Of a stretch of DNA of 45,287 nucleotides, positions 23,336 through 38,422 are shown piece by piece. Both the position numbers and the translations under genes were made by a program. Location of the stretch: IMG/VR virus record IMGVR_UViG_3300006100_001303, positions 1 to 45,287 of that record; one strand, 5' to 3'. The notes beneath the pieces were generated by a model, which was not told the DNA's origin, ran no database searches, and saw only the letters and a program-made list of their open reading frames with translations. This stretch comes from a virus. Within the stretch, counting starts at the first letter, position 1. Each line of letters opens with the position of its first letter.

Positions 23336-24273
23336 ACATATTCCTTCAGCTTAGAAGTCTCAGGCAGGAATTTGCCTGTTAACCCTAGTTCATCTTTGTA
23401 GTTCAGCCAATGATACGTTAAATTGTCTGGAATGTCAACCCTAGTTGAGTCCAGGATTTTAAAATATGTGCAAAGTAGACGATGATTTTGATCAGGATCC
23501 ATGTTTTCAGCTAACAATGTGTAGAGTTTGTAATAGTCCTCTACATCATCTTGCGTAACGGTAAACCCTAATCGAGCACTTAACACAGCAAGCGCGCCTG
23601 CGGGCGACACTGCTATAATTTCACCGCTAGATTTATCCTTCACACCTGCTACATGATTAAACGAAAGTCCAGCCACTTGGAATGCACTAAGCATTAGCTG
23701 TGTACGATGCAGACCTTTAACATTTGAATCTTCAGGATATGCAGCAGAATAGTATGAAAACTTCAACCATTCAATGTTGCCTACCATCCAGTCAATCTGC
23801 ACACCGGTACCTAGGCCGAAATTATTTTCATCGACCTGCGGAAATAATGTAAAGATATTGCCATCAGTGACTTTCTTTTCGTCGCAGAAAATGTGCTCAG
23901 CATGATCATTGATGCATTGAGTTAGCAGTTTAAGAAACGCTTTAACACGTAGCTGGTCATCGCTGCTAGTACGGGCTCGCTTTTTGAGTTGAATGAATTC
24001 GTCTTCATACTCAGCAGCAATCAGTCCCCATTCTTCTAATGATCCGTAAACATCATTTAGATCAAACAAGTCGCGGATATCAACACCTAGATCGATGTCA
24101 CCGCTCACAGACTTTTTACCGACAGACCCTAACGGAATAAAATGATCTGTGTTAAACAGATAGTCTTTAGCTGGAAATAAATTGGATAGTTCTGCAAAAT
24201 ATGCGGTTAGTGTTGGAGTAATGTGTTCACGCTTAATGCTGCTTGTTTTATCAGCGAATACGTTTCCGCCCAT
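23332..24273 (-). CDS. Polymerase-beta-type nucleotidyltransferase (313 aa)
   Basis: FIPLGSVGKKSVSGDIDLGVD is a clear GS-x-DhD motif at about residues 46-66. A large helical C-terminal region follows, with GTGVQIDWMVGNIEWLKF providing a possible third carboxylate (QIDWM). It lies next to the 289-aa nucleotidyltransferase and overlaps the deaminase-peptidase gene by 23 nt. Substrate unknown. Confidence 0.75.
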   Translation of the reverse strand: MGGNVFADKTSSIKREHITPTLTAYFAELSNLFPAKDYLFNTDHFIPLGSVGKKSVSGDIDLGVDIRDLFDLNDVYGSLEEWGLIAAEYEDEFIQLKKRARTSSDDQLRVKAFLKLLTQCINDHAEHIFCDEKKVTDGNIFTLFPQVDENNFGLGTGVQIDWMVGNIEWLKFSYYSAAYPEDSNVKGLHRTQLMLSAFQVAGLSFNHVAGVKDKSSGEIIAVSPAGALAVLSARLGFTVTQDDVEDYYKLYTLLAENMDPDQNHRLLCTYFKILDSTRVDIPDNLTYHWLNYKDELGLTGKFLPETSKLKEYV

Positions 24274-25675
24274 TAGTCTTACCTTCTTCTACAGGTTGAT
24301 AGGATAGATACTCTGGATATTCTTTATTAAAATGACGGATTACTATTCCGGCCATTGCGTTTGCTTCATTTTCGTCTCTCGATCCCGTAGTAGGATCAAT
24401 GTTGACATGCTCTTCGTTTTGCTTTGCATGAGTTAACTCATGTGCAAGTGTTCGTAAAATGTCAACTGGTTGTCTATTTGCAATAGCCAATTCCAAGGTA
24501 TATGTATCATTGCGAAAACGTCCCATAGTAGGTTGGTGGTTATCGGAAATAGTTTTTCTTAAAATAATCGTCGGCATTTTGTTTAGTTTAATAATTTTCT
24601 TAGCTAAGGGCAAGAACTTTTTTAGAATTTCTTTGAAATCGGCAACATTAATTGATTCATTGATTCCGTCTTTGCCGTGCGAAGCCTGTCCCATACCGAT
24701 GTCGAATGATTCATCTTTGTAAGGGAGGCGATAATTGCTAATATCGCGAGGAGTAGTTTTTTTCGGTTGAGGACCTCTCCATCCTCGTTCCCAAGCTGCT
24801 GCACCTTGTGCTGCTGTTTTTCCTCTGCTAACAAAATAAGCAATGACTTGTTGTTTGCTAGTGAATACTTCGTTTACTGTATCTTCGGCAAACATATTTA
24901 CAAATCTACCTTTGATATTTTTCCACTCACCTCGTAGTGCATCGGCCGCCATTTGTTTGTCGTACGCTGCTTTTGCTAACTTAGCTTTAAGTGGGTCAAC
25001 TGGAGCATGTTGTCCTATATCTTCTGGCTTAATATCAAACTCATTCATTAATTTCTTAATAATGCGCTCGATATTTGCTAGTTCATTTTCATTTCTGCCT
25101 GATGTATTTTGTAATTTTTTGATTTTAGAAATTGCGTCATCACGATCGATTGCTTCGTGCATTTCATCATCATCTAAAAATACATCAGCTAGTTTTTCAC
25201 ATATAGCGCGAATTTTAGGATTATTAGTTTCTTGTAGAGTAAATCGTCGATCATTGTGTTCGTGTTGTGAAGGATCAATAAACCCGCAATATACTTTATG
25301 CACCGGACTTTTATTGATTAAATCTGTGCAACTTTCTCCTGCGCGGTCATCCATGTGCTCGCAGCAAGGACTTAATGTAGTTAAAATGATACTACCTTCA
25401 GGAATTTCACCATATTTTTTATAATAAGCAACCATTGCAGCACGTTCTGCATGTATACGTGTGCCGTCCTCTGCAGGAATATTCAATCGAGCAACAATAT
25501 TTTGATCAGGATCTAACACAGCAGCAGCAACCATACCGAAATATGCAGGTTCTTTCTTCTGTCCGCGTATTACCATATCTGCTAATTTCACAAGGATATG
25601 ATCTAGTTTGTGGAGGTTATGAATCTCCCAATCAGATTGCTTTTCGCTTATATGAAAAAATTCATTTAGTTTCAT
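24251..25675 (-). CDS. Cytidine-deaminase-like domain fused to a zinc metallopeptidase
   Basis: 474 aa. Residues 1-11 (MKLNEFFHISE) look like a T4 capsid-targeting sequence with an I-x-E cleavage site. Residues 25-150 are a deaminase-fold domain with H75-A-E77 and C104; the third zinc ligand is probably C116 in GESCTDLI rather than the usual PCxxC. A motif ISRGKTAAQG-like (SRGKTAAQGAAAWERGWRG) follows. The C-terminus has LAHELTHAKQ (HELTH at 412-416) and DENEANAMAG, which may supply the third ligand of a zincin peptidase. Two zinc enzymes in one polypeptide next to virion genes suggest an injected effector, as with T4 Alt. Target unknown. Confidence 0.72.
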   Translation of the reverse strand: MKLNEFFHISEKQSDWEIHNLHKLDHILVKLADMVIRGQKKEPAYFGMVAAAVLDPDQNIVARLNIPAEDGTRIHAERAAMVAYYKKYGEIPEGSIILTTLSPCCEHMDDRAGESCTDLINKSPVHKVYCGFIDPSQHEHNDRRFTLQETNNPKIRAICEKLADVFLDDDEMHEAIDRDDAISKIKKLQNTSGRNENELANIERIIKKLMNEFDIKPEDIGQHAPVDPLKAKLAKAAYDKQMAADALRGEWKNIKGRFVNMFAEDTVNEVFTSKQQVIAYFVSRGKTAAQGAAAWERGWRGPQPKKTTPRDISNYRLPYKDESFDIGMGQASHGKDGINESINVADFKEILKKFLPLAKKIIKLNKMPTIILRKTISDNHQPTMGRFRNDTYTLELAIANRQPVDILRTLAHELTHAKQNEEHVNIDPTTGSRDENEANAMAGIVIRHFNKEYPEYLSYQPVEEGKTNGRKRIR

Positions 25676-26113: not shown

Positions 26114-26584
26114 TTAAAAGTTTAACCTAATAGACTGCACAGTACCTTGTTGTATTGTAATTACAGCTCGAAGATAAGAATAAAGTCCGGTAAATTCTAC
26201 GATATCTGTATGAGTAGGGCGACTAACTGCACCACTAAATCCACCACTGATTCCGGCCCCACCGGTGGTTTCTAATCCTACATAAGTTTTTAATGCATCG
26301 GGAATGTCAAACCAGTCAGAATCATTGCAAGGATGAGGTGAAATCGATCCTTGAATATTGCAAGTTCCTTTAAACGCTCCTGAAATAGCGTAAGTAACTG
26401 AATGTGTTCTAACACCTAGGCCATAATAGCCGGCGGCAGGAAGTTCTTTGCTGTTTAAACTTAATGGGTTAATGGGCATTTGCCCATTAACCATCTGAGG
26501 CATAGTAATGCTAGGTTGCGTGGTATGTGAATTTCTAGTTATCCACGGATTATAAAATTCAAATGTACTTGTTAAGTTGGGCAT
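26114..26584 (-). CDS. Probable virion structural protein (156 aa)
   Basis: Beta-rich, Gly/Ser/Thr-rich protein (GLETTGGAGISGGFSGAVS; FTGLYSYLRAVITIQQGTVQ) without enzyme motifs; its ending resembles small phage proteins in the head-to-tail or baseplate region. Its start overlaps the 3' end of the 230-aa gene, preceded by GAGG. Exact role unknown. Confidence 0.6.
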   Translation of the reverse strand: MPNLTSTFEFYNPWITRNSHTTQPSITMPQMVNGQMPINPLSLNSKELPAAGYYGLGVRTHSVTYAISGAFKGTCNIQGSISPHPCNDSDWFDIPDALKTYVGLETTGGAGISGGFSGAVSRPTHTDIVEFTGLYSYLRAVITIQQGTVQSIRLNF

Positions 26585-27264
26585 AATTCATCCTCGGGTA
26601 CACTATTTATTTGTGTACCACGAAGAACAAATTCTTCAATTTTTTTAATATCAGAACCAAGAAATAATCCTATCATCATCAGCAATTTTTCATTTCTAAC
26701 GTAGATGGAATATCCTTCGCTATATCTACTACTTTCTCTTAAATAGCGGCGAGTAAGTTCTGTCATGTGAATATCGTCGGCATAATTTTCTAACCAATTA
26801 AGGAAAGATGTTTTACGAGATTGCGGTATTCGATTCTTTAAAATTATTCGAAATTGAAGTCCACTATGCGGATATCGTTGTCTTAAGACAACATTTTTTT
26901 TGGTAAAAAGTTTATCTAAATCGTCGTCATTCTCGGGTTCGTAGCAGTCAGTTACCCAATCTTGCATTGTGCGGCATATAACTTCGTGATCTGTACGGTT
27001 TTCCGTATAGAACTTTGTATATTGTCCTTCAACACGTTGTTTGAACTTTGTTTGATCAAGTTCGGAATATTTGTTCGAATATCTTCTCAGTTCATTGATT
27101 GAATTCTGACTAAAATCTTTATAACGCCATGTGTTAGTAATATTTTTCAGTGCTTTATCTAGATTATGGCGGTTTCGCGCAAGCACGTCGCCGCCATTAA
27201 TCCGGACTTCGATTCGAAACGGATATTTTCCGTAGAATAGTTTACTAGTCTTATGAATTTTCAT
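26572..27264 (-). CDS. Hypothetical protein (230 aa)
   Basis: Basic, soluble, rich in Arg and Tyr. Begins [20 protein letters not shown]. Other visible blocks are RQRYPHSGLQFRIILKN and YSIYVRNEKLLMMIGLFLG. No family is recognised with confidence and no catalytic motif is obvious. It overlaps clpA by 14 nt and the 156-aa gene by 13 nt. Confidence 0.65.
   Translation of the reverse strand: MKIHKTSKLFYGKYPFRIEVRINGGDVLARNRHNLDKALKNITNTWRYKDFSQNSINELRRYSNKYSELDQTKFKQRVEGQYTKFYTENRTDHEVICRTMQDWVTDCYEPENDDDLDKLFTKKNVVLRQRYPHSGLQFRIILKNRIPQSRKTSFLNWLENYADDIHMTELTRRYLRESSRYSEGYSIYVRNEKLLMMIGLFLGSDIKKIEEFVLRGTQINSVPEDELCPT
26597..26619 (-). promoter_or_regulatory. Stem-loop with AATAAATA in the loop
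   Basis: Perfect 7-bp inverted repeat GGTACAC (26597-26603) / GTGTACC (26613-26619) just before the ribosome-binding site of the 156-aa gene. The loop carries AATAAATA on the minus strand, which also fits the relaxed late-promoter motif. Either reading is possible. Confidence 0.4.
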
Positions 27265-29527
27265 CGTCTACTGTTTCTACGATTTTATCTGATGTAGTAT
27301 CTAATACATTGATAAAATTAAACACAAACTGGTCCTCATTGGTATCGATCTCTACAATGCCGCCATTAACCAGTCTTCCGAACAAGATCTCCTTGCTAAG
27401 TGGCTTCTTGATCTGATCATCAATGGTACGATGTAACGGACGAGCACCCATCTTCTTATTAAATCCCTTCTTGATCAGCAATTCAACTGCATCTGGTGTG
27501 GGCTTAACAAAGATATTTTTTTCCTTGATTTGCGCATTAAGTTCGTCGATAAACTTCTTAACAATGCGGATCATTACAGTGTGTTCTAGCTTACCGAATT
27601 GGATGATACCATCTAAACGATTGCGGAATTCTGGCTTAAAGAACGCATTGACTGCTGCATTAATTTCGCCGTCGCGTTCTTGACTACCGAATCCTACGCC
27701 ATTCTTTTCAGCATCGCTGGCACCAAGATTGGAAGTAAGGATAACAATGGCATTGCGAGCATCTGCCTTTTTACCATTAGATCCTGTAACAAAACCGTTG
27801 TCCATCAAACCTAGCAACACGTTACTTACACTAGGATGTGCCTTTTCAATTTCGTCCAAGAGCAACACGCAGTTCGGATGTTCCTGCAACTTAGTGATGA
27901 GCTGACCTGCATTTTCGTCAAAGCCAACATAACCCGGAGGTGACCCGAGAAACTTAGCAACACTATGCTGCTCTTGGAACTCACTCATATCAAAGCGCAC
28001 AAGCTGCACACCTAGAGATTCTGCAAGTACCTTAGCAGTTTCAGTCTTACCACAACCTGTAGGACCAACAAAAAGGAAATTACCGATTGGCTTGTTAATG
28101 GATTTCAAACCTGCCTGCGCAATGAAGATCTTGTCTAGCAAAATCTCAATAGCGGTATCTTGACCGAACACCTTGCCGTTCATGTTCTTTTCGAGATCTC
28201 GAAGGTTTTGATTTTCCTTGGCAGCAACCTGCTCGACAGGAAGATTTGCAGCCTTTGCAACTTCGAACATGATTTCTTCGTGATCGACAACGCCGCCTTC
28301 TTCATTGCGTACCTTGAATCGAGCACACGCACAGTCGATTAGGTCGATGGCCTTATCGGGCAAGTGTTTGTCAGTAATATACTTTGTACTGTACTTGACA
28401 GCATCGGTGATTGCTTGATTCGTAATCTTAACACCGTGATGCTTTTCGTAATACTTACGCAAGCCCTTGATGATTTCGATTGCCATCTCTTCGCTGGGTT
28501 CATTGACTACTACCCGCTGGAATCGTCTCATTAAAGCACGATCCTTTTCGAAATGCTTACGGAATTCTTCCCAAGTAGTGCTTGCAATGACCTTTAAGGT
28601 ACCTTTGGTTAACGCAGGCTTTAGCATGTTGCTCATATCGTTTGAACTGCTGCTGCTCACTGCGCCAGCACCACTCATCATGTGTGCTTCGTCAATGAAT
28701 AAAATGCAGTTCTTACGCTTTTCTAGTGCAGTAATTACCATCTTAAGGCGTTCTTCGAAATCGCCGCGATACTTAGAACCTGCAAGCATTCCGCTAATAT
28801 CGAGATTGTAAACAGTGTGGTCCTTGATATAATCAGGAACATCACCTTCGACGATCTTACGGGCAAGACCTTCTGCAATCGCAGTCTTACCTACGCCTGG
28901 TTCACCGATCATCATGACATTGCTCTTTTGGCGGCGCGCAAGAACAAGAAGAATATCGTCTATCTCTTTTTCACGACCGATTACTGGGTCGATCTTTTTC
29001 TGCTTAACTTTGTTGTTTAAATTGGTACAGAATTGTACAATAATCTTTTCTAGTTGAGCATTGCTGATTTCCTCGGCAGCTTCGGAAGTTTGCTCGGTTT
29101 CATTATTAATGAAGTCAACAAACTTGTCCTTATCAATGCCTGCAAGGCGCATAAAATGCAGTGCATGACTTTTCTTCTCAGAAAATAGAGCAACAAAACA
29201 GTCAGTGGGTTCGATAATAGTGCGGCCGCTAAACAATACTTGAGTAAATGCACGATTTAGCATTCGTTCAATACTATTGGTCTTTCGCGGCTTTTCAGTA
29301 AGTTCGGCTACCTCGATGTCCTTGAGCTGGGTTTTAATGAAATTATCGAGATTGTTCTTAAGTTCGGGAACGTTAGTGCCAAAATCTACTAGAACTTTTT
29401 CAAAATCTTTATCAGAAATAATACTGAATAAGAAATGTTCTAGAGTAACATATTCGTGTTTATTCTTAATAGCAAGTTTGATTGCTCGTTCAAAAATTGA
29501 TGCCAAATTCTTATTCGGTTCTAACAT
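27251..29527 (-). CDS. clpA: ClpA-type AAA+ unfoldase
   Basis: 758 aa, the same length as E. coli ClpA. N-domain (residues 1-140, [14 protein letters not shown]); D1 with [15 protein letters not shown] and [11 protein letters not shown]2 with [15 protein letters not shown] and [12 protein letters not shown]-terminal [17 protein letters not shown]. ClpA unfolds proteins and feeds them to ClpP. The ClpP-contacting tripeptide (IGL in ClpA, IGF in ClpX) is VGF here (NGVGFGSQ, near residue 610), a conservative change that should still dock with host ClpP. No clpP gene is in the window. It clusters with deformylase and DnaJ genes. Confidence 0.94.
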
Positions 29528-29528
29528 A

Positions 29529-30017
29529 TTATTTCCTTTTAGATTTCTTTACACTCATAGCCCATTTTAACGGGCTCACTCTATTTTTAAAAGTAATACC
29601 TTCTAGATGATCTAATTCATGTAAAAAGCATTTGCATTCATATCCTTCAAAGGTCCCCTCCATTAATTCGCCTTTTGAGTTCTGCCAACGTGCCTTAATT
29701 GCTGTCGGTCGCTTTATTTTAACATAGATTCCGGGGAAACTCAAGCACCCTTCTTCTAAATCTTCGAGATTATCTGTGTTTGCAATAACCTCCGGATTAA
29801 AGAATGCCATACCGTTGTCTGGGTCTTCTCTGCTGCCCATAACAAATACTCTAGCTTTGATTCCTACCTGATTTGCGGCTAGTCCGATGCCACCATTCAA
29901 GTACATGGTATCTAACATATCGTATTCTAATTTTTCCGGGTCGTAGATCGGATTTTCAAAATCAAAAGCAGGCATTTGCTCTGATAGAATTGGATTGGGA
30001 AATTTTACTATCATCAT
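29529..30017 (-). CDS. def: Peptide deformylase
   Basis: 162 aa with all three family motifs: GGIGLAANQVG, EGCLSFPG (zinc Cys) and CFLHELDHLEG (HExxH). The enzyme removes the formyl group from new proteins. Aquatic phages often carry it, which may sustain protein synthesis late in infection. It overlaps dnaJ by ATGA and is followed after 1 nt by clpA. The C-terminus (WAMSVKKSKRK) is short and basic. Confidence 0.94.
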   Translation of the reverse strand: MMIVKFPNPILSEQMPAFDFENPIYDPEKLEYDMLDTMYLNGGIGLAANQVGIKARVFVMGSREDPDNGMAFFNPEVIANTDNLEDLEEGCLSFPGIYVKIKRPTAIKARWQNSKGELMEGTFEGYECKCFLHELDHLEGITFKNRVSPLKWAMSVKKSKRK

Positions 30018-30838
30018 ATATTTAATTTTCTCAAATTCTCTTTTTGCGTATCTGAAAGATCAGGAATTTTGATCTTAATTTTTAACAACAATCTACCACG
30101 TTCTCCTGTATGAAAGTTCGGCATTCCTCGATTTGCAAGTCCTAACATTGCATCGTGCTGAATTCCTGCAGGGATTGCAGTATCTAATTGTATATTATCT
30201 AAGTCGGTGACGGTGATATTTGTGCCTAGCATTGCATCTATACAACTTATTTCTAGATTTTGAACTAGATCGTCACCGACTCTTGTAAATCTGGGATGAT
30301 CTTGCACATGAATAGTTAATAAAATATCTCCACGGGGTAATCCTTGGATAGAGTCATCACCCATTCCGCTTAATTTTAATGTGGTACCGTCATGTATACC
30401 TTTTGGAATTTTGATATTTACGGTTTGATTACGTCCACTAGGTAATGTAACCTCTGCAAGCAATTCTTTTCCGTAAAACGTATCTTCTAAAGTAATCGAT
30501 GTTGACAGCCGCATGGATTGATTTACAGCCTGACGCTGTCTAAAACCGAATATTTCTCCAAATGGGCTTCCATGACCGAATATGCTTTCAAATCCCTGTC
30601 CATCGAAGCTAAAATCAAATCCGCCATGTTGCTGATTATATTGAGGTGCGGGATTATCGTATGCTGCACGTTTTTGAGCATCACTTAATGTTTCGTATGC
30701 TGCACTAATTTCTTGGAATTTGTTAATGTCACCGCCTTTATCGGGGTGATGTTGCATCGCAAGTTTACGATAAGCAGATTTAATCTCTTGCTCTGATGCG
30801 GCTCGGTCTACGCCTAGAATTTGATAATAGTCATTCAT
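30014..30838 (-). CDS. dnaJ: DnaJ/CbpA-type co-chaperone (type B, no zinc finger)
   Basis: 274 aa. J domain at 1-66 with the catalytic HPD in MQHHPDKGGD. A Gly/Phe-rich linker (GGFDFSFDGQGFESIFGHG) leads straight into the substrate-binding C-terminal domains (IPKGIHDGTTLKLSGMG). The CxxCxGxG zinc-finger region is absent, making it CbpA-like. It stimulates DnaK (host) and delivers substrates. It has its own consensus promoter and starts the dnaJ-def-clpA unit. A separate protein at 36145-36582 carries a DnaJ-type zinc finger. Confidence 0.9.
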   Translation of the reverse strand: MNDYYQILGVDRAASEQEIKSAYRKLAMQHHPDKGGDINKFQEISAAYETLSDAQKRAAYDNPAPQYNQQHGGFDFSFDGQGFESIFGHGSPFGEIFGFRQRQAVNQSMRLSTSITLEDTFYGKELLAEVTLPSGRNQTVNIKIPKGIHDGTTLKLSGMGDDSIQGLPRGDILLTIHVQDHPRFTRVGDDLVQNLEISCIDAMLGTNITVTDLDNIQLDTAIPAGIQHDAMLGLANRGMPNFHTGERGRLLLKIKIKIPDLSDTQKENLRKLNI

Positions 30839-30850
30839 TGATTAGGATCC

Positions 30851-30893
30851 AGTATAATAAACTAATTATACTATGTTCTACGGTAGAAGTCAA
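30851..30893 (-). promoter_or_regulatory. sigma70-like promoter with a palindromic -10, upstream of dnaJ
   Basis: TTGACT (30888-30893), 17 nt, TATAAT (30865-30870) on the minus strand. The -10 lies in one arm of a perfect inverted repeat, AGTATAAT (30851-30858) and ATTATACT (30865-30872), 6 nt apart. Predicted leader is about 20 nt. Confidence 0.8.
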
Positions 30894-31670: not shown

Positions 31671-32057
31671 TCAGATAGTTCCTTTATCTAGGAGAACTAA
31701 TTCGTTTTCGCGATCGATATATTTGAATTCAACCTTGGTAGGTTCGAATGGTTGAATTGCAGCAAATACGTCATGGGTGTTTAACGTACTACACGTATAC
31801 ACATCTAACTGCATCATAGCAGGCTCACATTCGTCCCATACATGCATAGCAATATGGCTAGTCTCAATAATTGTCACGGCGGTCAGTCCGCGATTACCGA
31901 CCATGTCAGAATATACAGCGTAGGGGCCCATTAGAATTTTCATGCCGATTTTTTCGACTAGCTCTTTCATCCAGTCTTGAATTGCTTCGGCGCATTGTGG
32001 TGGATTATTTAACTCTGCTCTGACGATAAGATGCTTGTGTTCAAGTACTTTACCCAT
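31671..32057 (-). CDS. speD: S-adenosylmethionine decarboxylase
   Basis: 128 aa, the bacterial SpeD class-1B size. The autoprocessing motif ETSHIAMHVW contains the Ser that becomes the pyruvoyl group, and MMQLDVYTC with the active-site Cys follows. The enzyme makes decarboxylated SAM for spermidine synthesis. speD is a known auxiliary gene of T4-like cyanophages; polyamines may help DNA packaging. No other polyamine gene is in the window. Confidence 0.88.
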   Translation of the reverse strand: MGKVLEHKHLIVRAELNNPPQCAEAIQDWMKELVEKIGMKILMGPYAVYSDMVGNRGLTAVTIIETSHIAMHVWDECEPAMMQLDVYTCSTLNTHDVFAAIQPFEPTKVEFKYIDRENELVLLDKGTI

Positions 32058-35854: not shown

Positions 35855-36148
35855 TTATCCATAATAACCGTGTGATTTGTGTGTTCTCTCGGATGTAGTT
35901 CCGCAAAGTACGCATTTGTTCCAATATTCAGTGTATGCTTGATCTAAGTATGAACCACCGAAATAATACTGTTCTTGTGTAACCTCATCATGAGTACAAG
36001 TTTCAAGTAATTCTTTAATTGCATCATTATGCTTTTTTATCAGTTTACGTTTAGCAATAACGAATTCGTGGTTGTCGATCTCTGCTTGACTTTTATTAGA
36101 AAGTTTGCGGTGCTTTTCGATCTGCTTTTTGCGGTCTTCGAAGGTCAT
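35855..36148 (-). CDS. Hypothetical zinc-binding-like protein (97 aa)
   Basis: Highly charged N-terminal coiled coil (DRKKQIEKHRKLSNKSQAEI) and a C-terminal part with CTHDE and CVLCGTTSERTH, which together could chelate zinc. It overlaps the 145-aa gene by ATGA. No family recognised. Confidence 0.66.
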   Translation of the reverse strand: MTFEDRKKQIEKHRKLSNKSQAEIDNHEFVIAKRKLIKKHNDAIKELLETCTHDEVTQEQYYFGGSYLDQAYTEYWNKCVLCGTTSERTHKSHGYYG

Positions 36149-36582
36149 ACTGTTTCTTTCTTTAACAGTTCTATTGTGCGATACTGTTCGACTAGCTTAT
36201 CGTAATTGTCATAGTTTACCGCAGCAAGATCAGGATATTTTTCTTCAAGAGCACGATCGGTCATGTCCAATCTTAATCGTAACCATCTATCCTCATAAGA
36301 ATGTGGATCTACAAATTCTTTAAAGGAAATGTAAGGCATAAGTTGCACTTTGTCATTACCTAAATTTAGCGATAAACGTTCGGTTGATTTAATCATTCTC
36401 CCGTCGCCTTCGCAACGCCCGCATGTAGTACGATATGTACTATACTCTCTCTTGTGATAGTCGGATAATTCTTCTTTTTCGAAGAATCCGTATCCTTTGC
36501 AGTGCTCACAAAGGACAACAGTATTGGATCTGCTCAAACTACCAGTGATGTATTGAGGAAGGTCCTTGATCTCAATGGGCAT
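36145..36582 (-). CDS. Protein with a stand-alone DnaJ-type zinc finger (145 aa)
   Basis: VVLCEHCKGYGFF and TTCGRCEGDGRMI are two CxxCxGxG repeats, the hallmark of the DnaJ central zinc finger. There is no J domain. Residues after about 75 form a separate domain (NDKVQLMPYISFKEFVD; LEEKYPDLAAVNYDNYDK). The window's DnaJ lacks this finger. The pairing of the two is suggestive but not shown. It is followed directly by the cytidylyltransferase gene's start. Confidence 0.72.
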   Translation of the reverse strand: MPIEIKDLPQYITGSLSRSNTVVLCEHCKGYGFFEKEELSDYHKREYSTYRTTCGRCEGDGRMIKSTERLSLNLGNDKVQLMPYISFKEFVDPHSYEDRWLRLRLDMTDRALEEKYPDLAAVNYDNYDKLVEQYRTIELLKKETV

Positions 36583-37605: not shown

Positions 37606-38015
37606 TACAGGTCGCCTTCTTTGCGGTTTTCAGAATAGTGAGCATCAAACTTTCCACCCGGATAACGAGCTTCTAGCTTGTTGACATTTTCAGCAATAAC
37701 TTCGTTCGGATCAAGTCCAAGTGCATTACATGCATTGGTCCAATACCAAATGATATCTCCGAGTTCACGCTTCATGTGAAAAATGGTATCCTCGTTCAGC
37801 GGCTTGCCCTGAAAGAAAATCTTCTTTACAATTTCATTGAACTCTCCGCCTTCGCTGGCAAGTCCTATACCTGCTGTAAGTAGCAACGGAATGTTGACAT
37901 TACTGGTATTGTGGAGTTTCCGGACATGTTCTACAAATTCTACTGGATCCTTGCTTGTCTCTGAACAGACTGCTAGTACAAACTCTGCATACTTGTTTAA
38001 ATCTATGTTACTCAA
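37605..38015 (-). CDS. mazG: MazG-like nucleotide pyrophosphohydrolase
   Basis: 136 aa with the all-alpha NTP pyrophosphatase metal site EGGEFNEIVKK and, 30 residues on, KRELGDIIWYW (ExxE..ExxD). MazG hydrolyses (d)NTPs or ppGpp; phage versions may alter nucleotide pools or the stringent response. The family is common in T4-like aquatic phages. It overlaps the GroES-like gene by ATGA. Confidence 0.88.
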   Translation of the reverse strand: MSNIDLNKYAEFVLAVCSETSKDPVEFVEHVRKLHNTSNVNIPLLLTAGIGLASEGGEFNEIVKKIFFQGKPLNEDTIFHMKRELGDIIWYWTNACNALGLDPNEVIAENVNKLEARYPGGKFDAHYSENRKEGDL

Positions 38016-38422
38016 AATTTCCTCGCTTCATTAACAAAATCTTCTGGACGGTGTTGAACATTTGGAGTTGTATCAATACCATTATTAATCATCACTGCGT
38101 TGTCTGGCTTCTCGTTTTGCCAGCCAATGATGCTTTCAGCTTCGACCATACGAACGTCGATTACCTCACCGGTACCTTCGTCGACATTGACTCCCCGGGT
38201 CCATCTTCCATGTTCGACTAAAACCCAATCACCGACTTGATAATCGTCGACATTTTTATGTCCTTTTGCGTGAACTTTGGCCCATCGTGGATATATTCCT
38301 CTAGAAGTACCATTATCGTCGCGGATAATGATGCCACTAGCAGTTTTTTGATCTCCGAAATACATATCCGTAACTAGTACGCGATCGAGTACCGGAGTAA
38401 GTTTACCTTTTCTAATAACCAT
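38012..38422 (-). CDS. GroES-like co-chaperonin (gp31 type)
   Basis: 136 aa. The GroES beta-barrel shows as PVLDRVLVTDMYFGDQKTAS followed by GIIIRDDNG (mobile loop area), then WAKVHAKGHKNVDDYQVGDW and VLVEHG. GroES-like phage proteins (T4 gp31, CocO) replace host GroES on GroEL to fold phage capsid protein. It is longer than host GroES (about 97 aa) because of a C-terminal extension of about 40 residues of unknown role. Confidence 0.83.
   Translation of the reverse strand: MVIRKGKLTPVLDRVLVTDMYFGDQKTASGIIIRDDNGTSRGIYPRWAKVHAKGHKNVDDYQVGDWVLVEHGRWTRGVNVDEGTGEVIDVRMVEAESIIGWQNEKPDNAVMINNGIDTTPNVQHRPEDFVNEARKF

Follow-up and report, generated by a model that had tools for sequence, protein, structure and literature searches.

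A minus-strand operon for DnaJ, deformylase and ClpA

The IMG/VR virus record IMGVR_UViG_3300006100_001303 was analysed over its whole length of 45,287 nucleotides (the window), a 45-kb fragment whose relatives are found on contigs of up to 328 kb. The minus strand of the window carries an operon of four genes, coding in this order for DnaJ, a peptide deformylase, ClpA and a 230-aa orphan protein. The features referred to below are the following (ORF, open reading frame; E, expectation value):

30865..30893, minus strand: sigma-70-type promoter TTGACT-17-TATAAT, matching 11 of 12 consensus positions, upstream of dnaJ
30014..30838, minus strand: dnaJ, class B, 274 aa (ORF; Pfam J domain and DnaJ C-terminal domain)
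29529..30017, minus strand: peptide deformylase, 162 aa (ORF; Pep_deformylase, E 1.9e-40; motifs)
27251..29527, minus strand: clpA, full length, without middle domain, 758 aa (ORF; Pfam; PHROG; alignment with E. coli ClpA)
27689..27697, minus strand: codons of the VGF ClpP-docking loop (ClpA residues 611-613), in register with E. coli IGL
26572..27264, minus strand: 230-aa orphan ORF across the clpA stop, possibly an adaptor gene or else an unrelated gene for a virion protein (ORF)
38012..38422, minus strand: gp31/GroES-like gene outside the operon (phrog_931)

dnaJ and the deformylase gene overlap by 4 bases, the latter lies 1 base apart from clpA, and clpA overlaps the orphan by 14 bases. 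All three genes placed at 27251-30838 by an initial annotation, made from the sequence alone, were confirmed by ORFs, Pfam and PHROG, head to tail, and the proteostasis theme it had proposed is borne out by an operon that is intact, conserved and located behind a consensus promoter. Its description as one unit under this promoter is correct with respect to the promoter and the packing of the genes, but the unit continues downstream into the 230-aa ORF.

The operon was compared with the best 80 loci out of at least 595 confirmed ClpA relatives, which make up a common phage lineage. A match to dnaJ was obtained in 75 of these loci, to the orphan in 74 and to the deformylase in 57; some of the loci are truncated by the end of a contig. 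Counted by ORFs, full dnaJ is present in 74/80; of those 74, 52 have a deformylase of at least 120 aa and 21 have none, so that dnaJ and clpA form a constant pair and the deformylase is optional. Loci L002 and L003, among the nearest relatives, are without deformylase.

The initial annotation of a type-B DnaJ and a deformylase agrees with the domains and motifs present. DnaJ contains a J domain with HPD and a C-terminal domain and has no CxxCxGxG zinc finger, which assigns it to class B. Peptide deformylases are characterized by the motifs GxGxAAxQ, EGC[LV]S and HExxH, present in the window protein as GIGLAANQ, EGCLS and HELDH. The three motifs occur as written in 39 of 56 relatives; the other 17 deviate in one of the first two. 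A lone minus-strand protein (36145-36582) with two CxxCxGxG motifs resembles the free-standing zinc finger of a DnaJ, in a phage whose DnaJ is without one.

Pfam recognizes Clp_N (16-64), AAA, AAA_lid_9, AAA_2 and ClpB_D2-small domains in ClpA, and the protein belongs to phrog_4871 (E 1.5e-246). Escherichia coli ClpA (1ksf) aligns with it end to end in a single collinear stretch (647 bits), and structures of the E. coli ClpA N-domain match residues 11-144. Full-length ClpB and ClpC align in two stretches, which fits a protein lacking the middle domain. Both AAA+ modules keep their Walker A and B pairs in register with the relatives, the pore loops KYRGD and GYVGF are kept, and VGF at residues 611-613 aligns with the E. 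coli IGL. The protein thus has the N-domain, the two AAA+ modules and the docking loop of a class I Hsp100 of ClpA type and no middle domain, and is predicted to bind ClpP and to drive degradation. Nonsynonymous divergence (dN) is ~0.17 to each of four relatives; synonymous divergence (dS) was not estimable, most likely due to saturation.

Full-length ClpA with a VGF loop had been correctly seen in the initial annotation, which treated VGF in place of IGL/IGF as noteworthy. The loop is within the normal range. The window and its 80 relatives (n=81) carry VGF in 67 cases, IGF in 13 and LGF in one; the nearest bacterial ClpAs (n=78, two of 80 loci having been left out beforehand as incomplete) carry IGF in 53, MGF in 12, VGF in 5, LGF, FGF and IGL in 2 each, and YGF and PGF in 1 each. 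A special status of VGF was consequently rejected, as it is the commonest loop of the lineage and is also found in bacteria; judged by its residues, VGF is an ordinary, canonical ClpP-docking loop.

Among 59 distinct relatives with sufficient upstream sequence, 53 have a dnaJ promoter matching 11-12 of the 12 consensus positions, against ~0.2 expected from shuffles; for the window's own 150 bases, a score of 11 was reached in 14 of 2000 shuffles. Sites of this quality (11-12/12) are present nine times on the minus strand of the window, the dnaJ one included, and once on the plus strand. The idea of a promoter unique to the operon was therefore dropped, and the dnaJ operon is one of several host-polymerase units. 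We infer that it is plausibly expressed early.

ClpP and its partners in relatives and in named phages

Genes for ClpP, ClpS, DnaK, Cpn10, Aat and GrpE were sought in 20 of the 80 relative contigs, picked for length or nearness. ClpP is encoded by 18 of them (PF00574, E 1.8e-63 or better), always on the strand of clpA and 16.4-40.6 kb upstream of it; in the nearest long relatives, G019 and G020, the distance amounts to 17.4 kb and 18.3 kb. The 15,760 bp available upstream of clpA in the window are short of the clpP position in all 18. The two ClpP-less contigs also end too early: G014 extends 35,542 bp upstream and G018 11,549 bp, and G006 and G009, in which the shared genes have the same identities to the window as those of G014, need 35,554 bp to reach clpP. 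Upstream gene order is common to the window and G019/G020 over 34.8-43.6 kb, and with G020 also downstream of clpA. The initial annotation had assumed a phage ClpA without ClpP, naming a clpP elsewhere in the genome as the finding that would speak against it; such a gene exists in the 18 contigs, G019 and G020 among them. The idea that the lineage has no ClpP of its own was accordingly rejected, the two remaining contigs and the window all ending early.

Catalytic Ser-His-Asp residues are located at the aligned E. coli positions in 18/18 lineage ClpPs, and the ClpP of G020 scores up to 245 bits against solved ClpPs. At positions which we take to form the docking pocket, the lineage has His at 49 in 16/18 and Tyr at 90 in 17/18; among 31 bacterial ClpPs, too, variation is seen at positions 60, 90, 92, 112 and 189. 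As these positions fail to separate phage from bacterial ClpP cleanly, no claim of a distinctive phage docking pocket is made. Lineage ClpPs are of two types (L092-L100 versus L081-L088 with L091), of which one has 10 residues inserted in the handle region and reads MIHR where the other reads MIHQ; ClpP of phage PAC2 groups with the insertion type.

ClpS was identified in 11/20 of the contigs, Cpn10 in 7/20 and DnaK in 5/20. Aligned with a solved E. coli-type ClpS, the G019 protein keeps NDD.TPM and the later His. This nearest relative has ClpP, ClpS, DnaK and Hsp20, and genes for DnaK, Hsp20, ClpS and heme oxygenase stand in a row in both G019 and G011 (L246:7719-10996, L247:3342-6697). DnaK matches exist in Lak and other huge phages, so a phage DnaK is not new.

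Named large phages were examined in a convenience sample of mutually related genomes, 12 taken from a ClpA match list of 175 records and 13 serving as controls, which were picked by accession. The 12 phages with clpA encode ClpP in 11 cases and ClpS in 11 (10 over cut-off). Three of the 13 further phages turned out to possess clpA; two of these encode full ClpP, and the third has a 57-bit match. With full ClpP defined as at least 130 bits, a line set after the scores were seen, it is present in 13/15 ClpA-bearing versus 2/10 ClpA-less phages (Fisher p 0.002, in a convenience sample of related phages). Ser-His-Asp is found in 11/11 main ClpPs of named jumbo phages, a count that omits second ClpP-like copies; that of Phosso was aligned and has all three residues. 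The order dnaJ-clpA occurs in PAC2 and Atu_ph07 and dnaJ-deformylase-clpA in Phosso, at 41-43% ClpA identity to the window, and clpA of SCTP-2 lies near phoH without an annotated dnaJ. Phages with a divergent ClpP have the loops IGV, IGM, MNM, LGM and IGG, though XaC1 among them retains VGF, and LR756501, which has neither ClpP nor ClpS, carries QGM. This pattern suggests that docking loop and phage ClpP may drift together.

A ClpA tree was built from 38 of the 81 lineage rows (dereplicated at 85%), 12 named phages and 26 of the 78 bacterial rows. The lineage forms a single clade (support 100) opposite the bacteria (94), long branches lead to several of the named phages, and the window is sister to L002, the locus of G019 (99). 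In the ClpP tree, one branch (89) sets the bacteria off together. Both trees come from quick searches; with bacteria apart in each, the Clp genes look like long-standing phage genes and not like genes recently taken from a host.

A putative phage-borne ClpAP protease and its alternatives

We consider it likely that the operon supplies the unfoldase part of an ATP-dependent ClpAP protease that a lineage of large freshwater phages carries in its own genomes. Early-expressed phage ClpAP(S) together with DnaJ would probably constitute a private machine. Host RNA polymerase would transcribe the dnaJ operon early, and ClpA hexamers would dock on the phage's own ClpP, perhaps on host ClpP also. ClpS, where encoded, would bring N-degron proteins to ClpAP, DnaJ with host or phage DnaK would pass on or refold misfolded clients, and the deformylase would trim N-termini of rapidly made phage proteins. 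The purpose would likely be quality control of abundant phage proteins and removal of chosen host proteins.

Several observations weigh against this proposal. Neither clpP, clpS nor dnaK was found in the 45-kb window, so that we infer all three from the relatives, ClpP by synteny; in these relatives, moreover, clpA and clpP do not lie next to each other. Near-duplicates occur among the 18 ClpP contigs (G006/G009, G004/G005 and G013/G015 are instances), hence the independent lineages are fewer than 18. ClpS was not found in 9 of the 20 contigs, many of which are fragments. GrpE, and Aat as part of a full phage N-end-rule pathway, were each detected in 0/32 records searched. A canonical docking loop would suit host ClpP too, and pocket residues that do not separate phage from bacterial ClpP leave a private pairing unproven.

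A more far-reaching version of the proposal appears doubtful. The lineage would carry a self-contained viral degradation and folding network, expressed early through the host polymerase and consisting of ClpA, ClpP, ClpS and DnaJ, in some members with DnaK, Hsp20 and a gp31-type GroES. The orphan would act as an adaptor or regulator setting the substrates of viral ClpAP, so that host proteins, for example defence factors, would be destroyed on the phage's schedule without host Clp parts.

Somewhat less probable still is a phage that lacks a ClpP, or leaves its own unused, and whose ClpA binds to host ClpP and steers it towards selected substrates. The VGF loop, carried by bacterial ClpAs as well, and a window without clpP are in line with such hijacking, but the window stops before the position that clpP occupies in 18/20 relatives, and full ClpP accompanies ClpA in most ClpA-bearing named phages. 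Redirection of host ClpP or a solitary unfoldase, as put forward in the initial annotation, is no longer needed to explain the operon, given the clpP of the relatives.

We regard it as improbable that ClpA dispenses with ClpP altogether and functions by itself, or chiefly as an unfoldase or a chaperone of assembly, such as that of virions. Translocase or assembly roles are suggested in a jumbo-phage survey (PMC7824862, accessible part). Seven named phages (RaK2, 121Q, Munch, CBB, Hallingskeid, XaC1 and Vibrio phage 2.275) have a solitary clpA surrounded by virion genes, LR756501 encodes a ClpA with the loop QGM and neither ClpP nor ClpS, and the gene following the orphan is virion-like; on the other hand, all 81 lineage ClpAs keep a VGF, IGF or LGF docking loop, and the lineage keeps ClpP.

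Least probable, we think, are three genes with separate jobs and only a promoter in common, DnaJ capturing host DnaK in the manner of the phage protein Rki, the deformylase maturing phage proteins and ClpA doing something else: the loci without deformylase, the many named phages with clpA but no adjoining dnaJ, and a known early phage J-protein acting on DnaK (PMC3486835, accessible part) would fit, but throughout the lineage, as also in PAC2, Atu_ph07 and Phosso, dnaJ directly precedes either clpA or the pair deformylase-clpA.

Large phages are often assumed to rely on or redirect host proteases. If ClpA, ClpP and ClpS indeed act together, such phages would own a regulated protease, and it can be asked which host proteins vanish through its action.

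Known systems, the orphan and neighbouring genes

The closest published counterpart described in the accessible text of PMC6102473 is Agrobacterium phage Atu_ph07, in which DnaJ directly precedes ClpA (gp293, gp292) as in the window lineage, and ClpP (gp676) and ClpS (gp708) lie elsewhere in the genome as in the relatives. Its ClpA is 41% identical to that of the window. Unlike the window, it has no deformylase between dnaJ and clpA, its genome is 490 kb, and ClpB and ClpX are reported. Sinorhizobium phage Phosso (PV764938) shares the order dnaJ-deformylase-Clp-family ATPase and, like the window's relatives, encodes full ClpP and ClpS, but its ClpA identity is 41% and its downstream neighbours are different (thymidylate synthase). 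Moraphages, as described in the accessible text of PMC12619734, resemble the window lineage in being large, mostly freshwater and equipped with core ClpA, some also with DnaJ, DnaK and Hsp20; they differ in that their hosts are mostly Bacteroidota and their DnaK is of Flavobacteriales type. The term ClpP does not occur in that accessible text.

The likeness to E. coli ClpAPS comprises end-to-end ClpA without middle domain, an IGL-type loop in register, the ClpP triad and the ClpS pocket residues; phage ClpA and ClpP nevertheless fall outside the bacterial groups in trees, and the gene layout differs. Rki of the T4-related phage RB43 is a J-domain protein, expressed early, that captures host DnaK; the accessible part of PMC3486835 describes it as no generic co-chaperone, whereas the window DnaJ has the DnaJ C-terminal domain.

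With Atu_ph07, the survey and the moraphages already in print, this kind of system is known. The survey (PMC7824862) treats ClpP, ClpS, ClpA and DnaJ apart in its accessible part, and the passages of PMC6102473, PMC7824862 and PMC12619734 that were consulted hold no mention of a conserved operon with its promoter, of synteny between clpA and clpP or of the coupled orphan. An exact-phrase search of the open literature on phage-encoded ClpA, ClpP, DnaK and Hsp70 returned no paper.

The freshest lead is the orphan, whose coupling to clpA makes it a specific candidate for an adaptor of the viral protease. In an ORF search, a homologue was present in 75/80 loci, its start overlapping the clpA stop in 72/75, with 18-31% identity across 46 aligned relatives. 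AlphaFold2 predicts a two-part ferredoxin-like fold (pLDDT, the model's confidence score, 92). A Foldseek search of the PDB gave no match at E 0.001 or better; the best VIA-align hits (Z up to 6.0, middling) were ferredoxin-like domains of unrelated proteins, to which the two halves matched apart. Its clear matches among viruses are to phage proteins that are themselves uncharacterized, including one from Atu_ph07. In 29/35 members the next gene is similar to a virion protein, so the orphan could equally be a structural protein as a dedicated adaptor or regulator.

A GroES-like gene elsewhere in the window, also claimed by the initial annotation, is supported at 38012-38422 by phrog_931 (E 9.7e-12); the Cpn10 match (E 3.9e-4, 20.8 bits) is just under the Pfam cut-off of 21.1, and the Cpn10 model searched alone against the window gave no match at E 0.001.

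Two other minus-strand genes were observed nearby. The product of 31671-32057 is similar to S-adenosylmethionine decarboxylase and, among the 80 loci, is matched in L002 and L003 only (~91%). The 474-aa ORF at 24251-25675 has an N-terminal deaminase domain (PF00383), followed by a long uncharacterized remainder.

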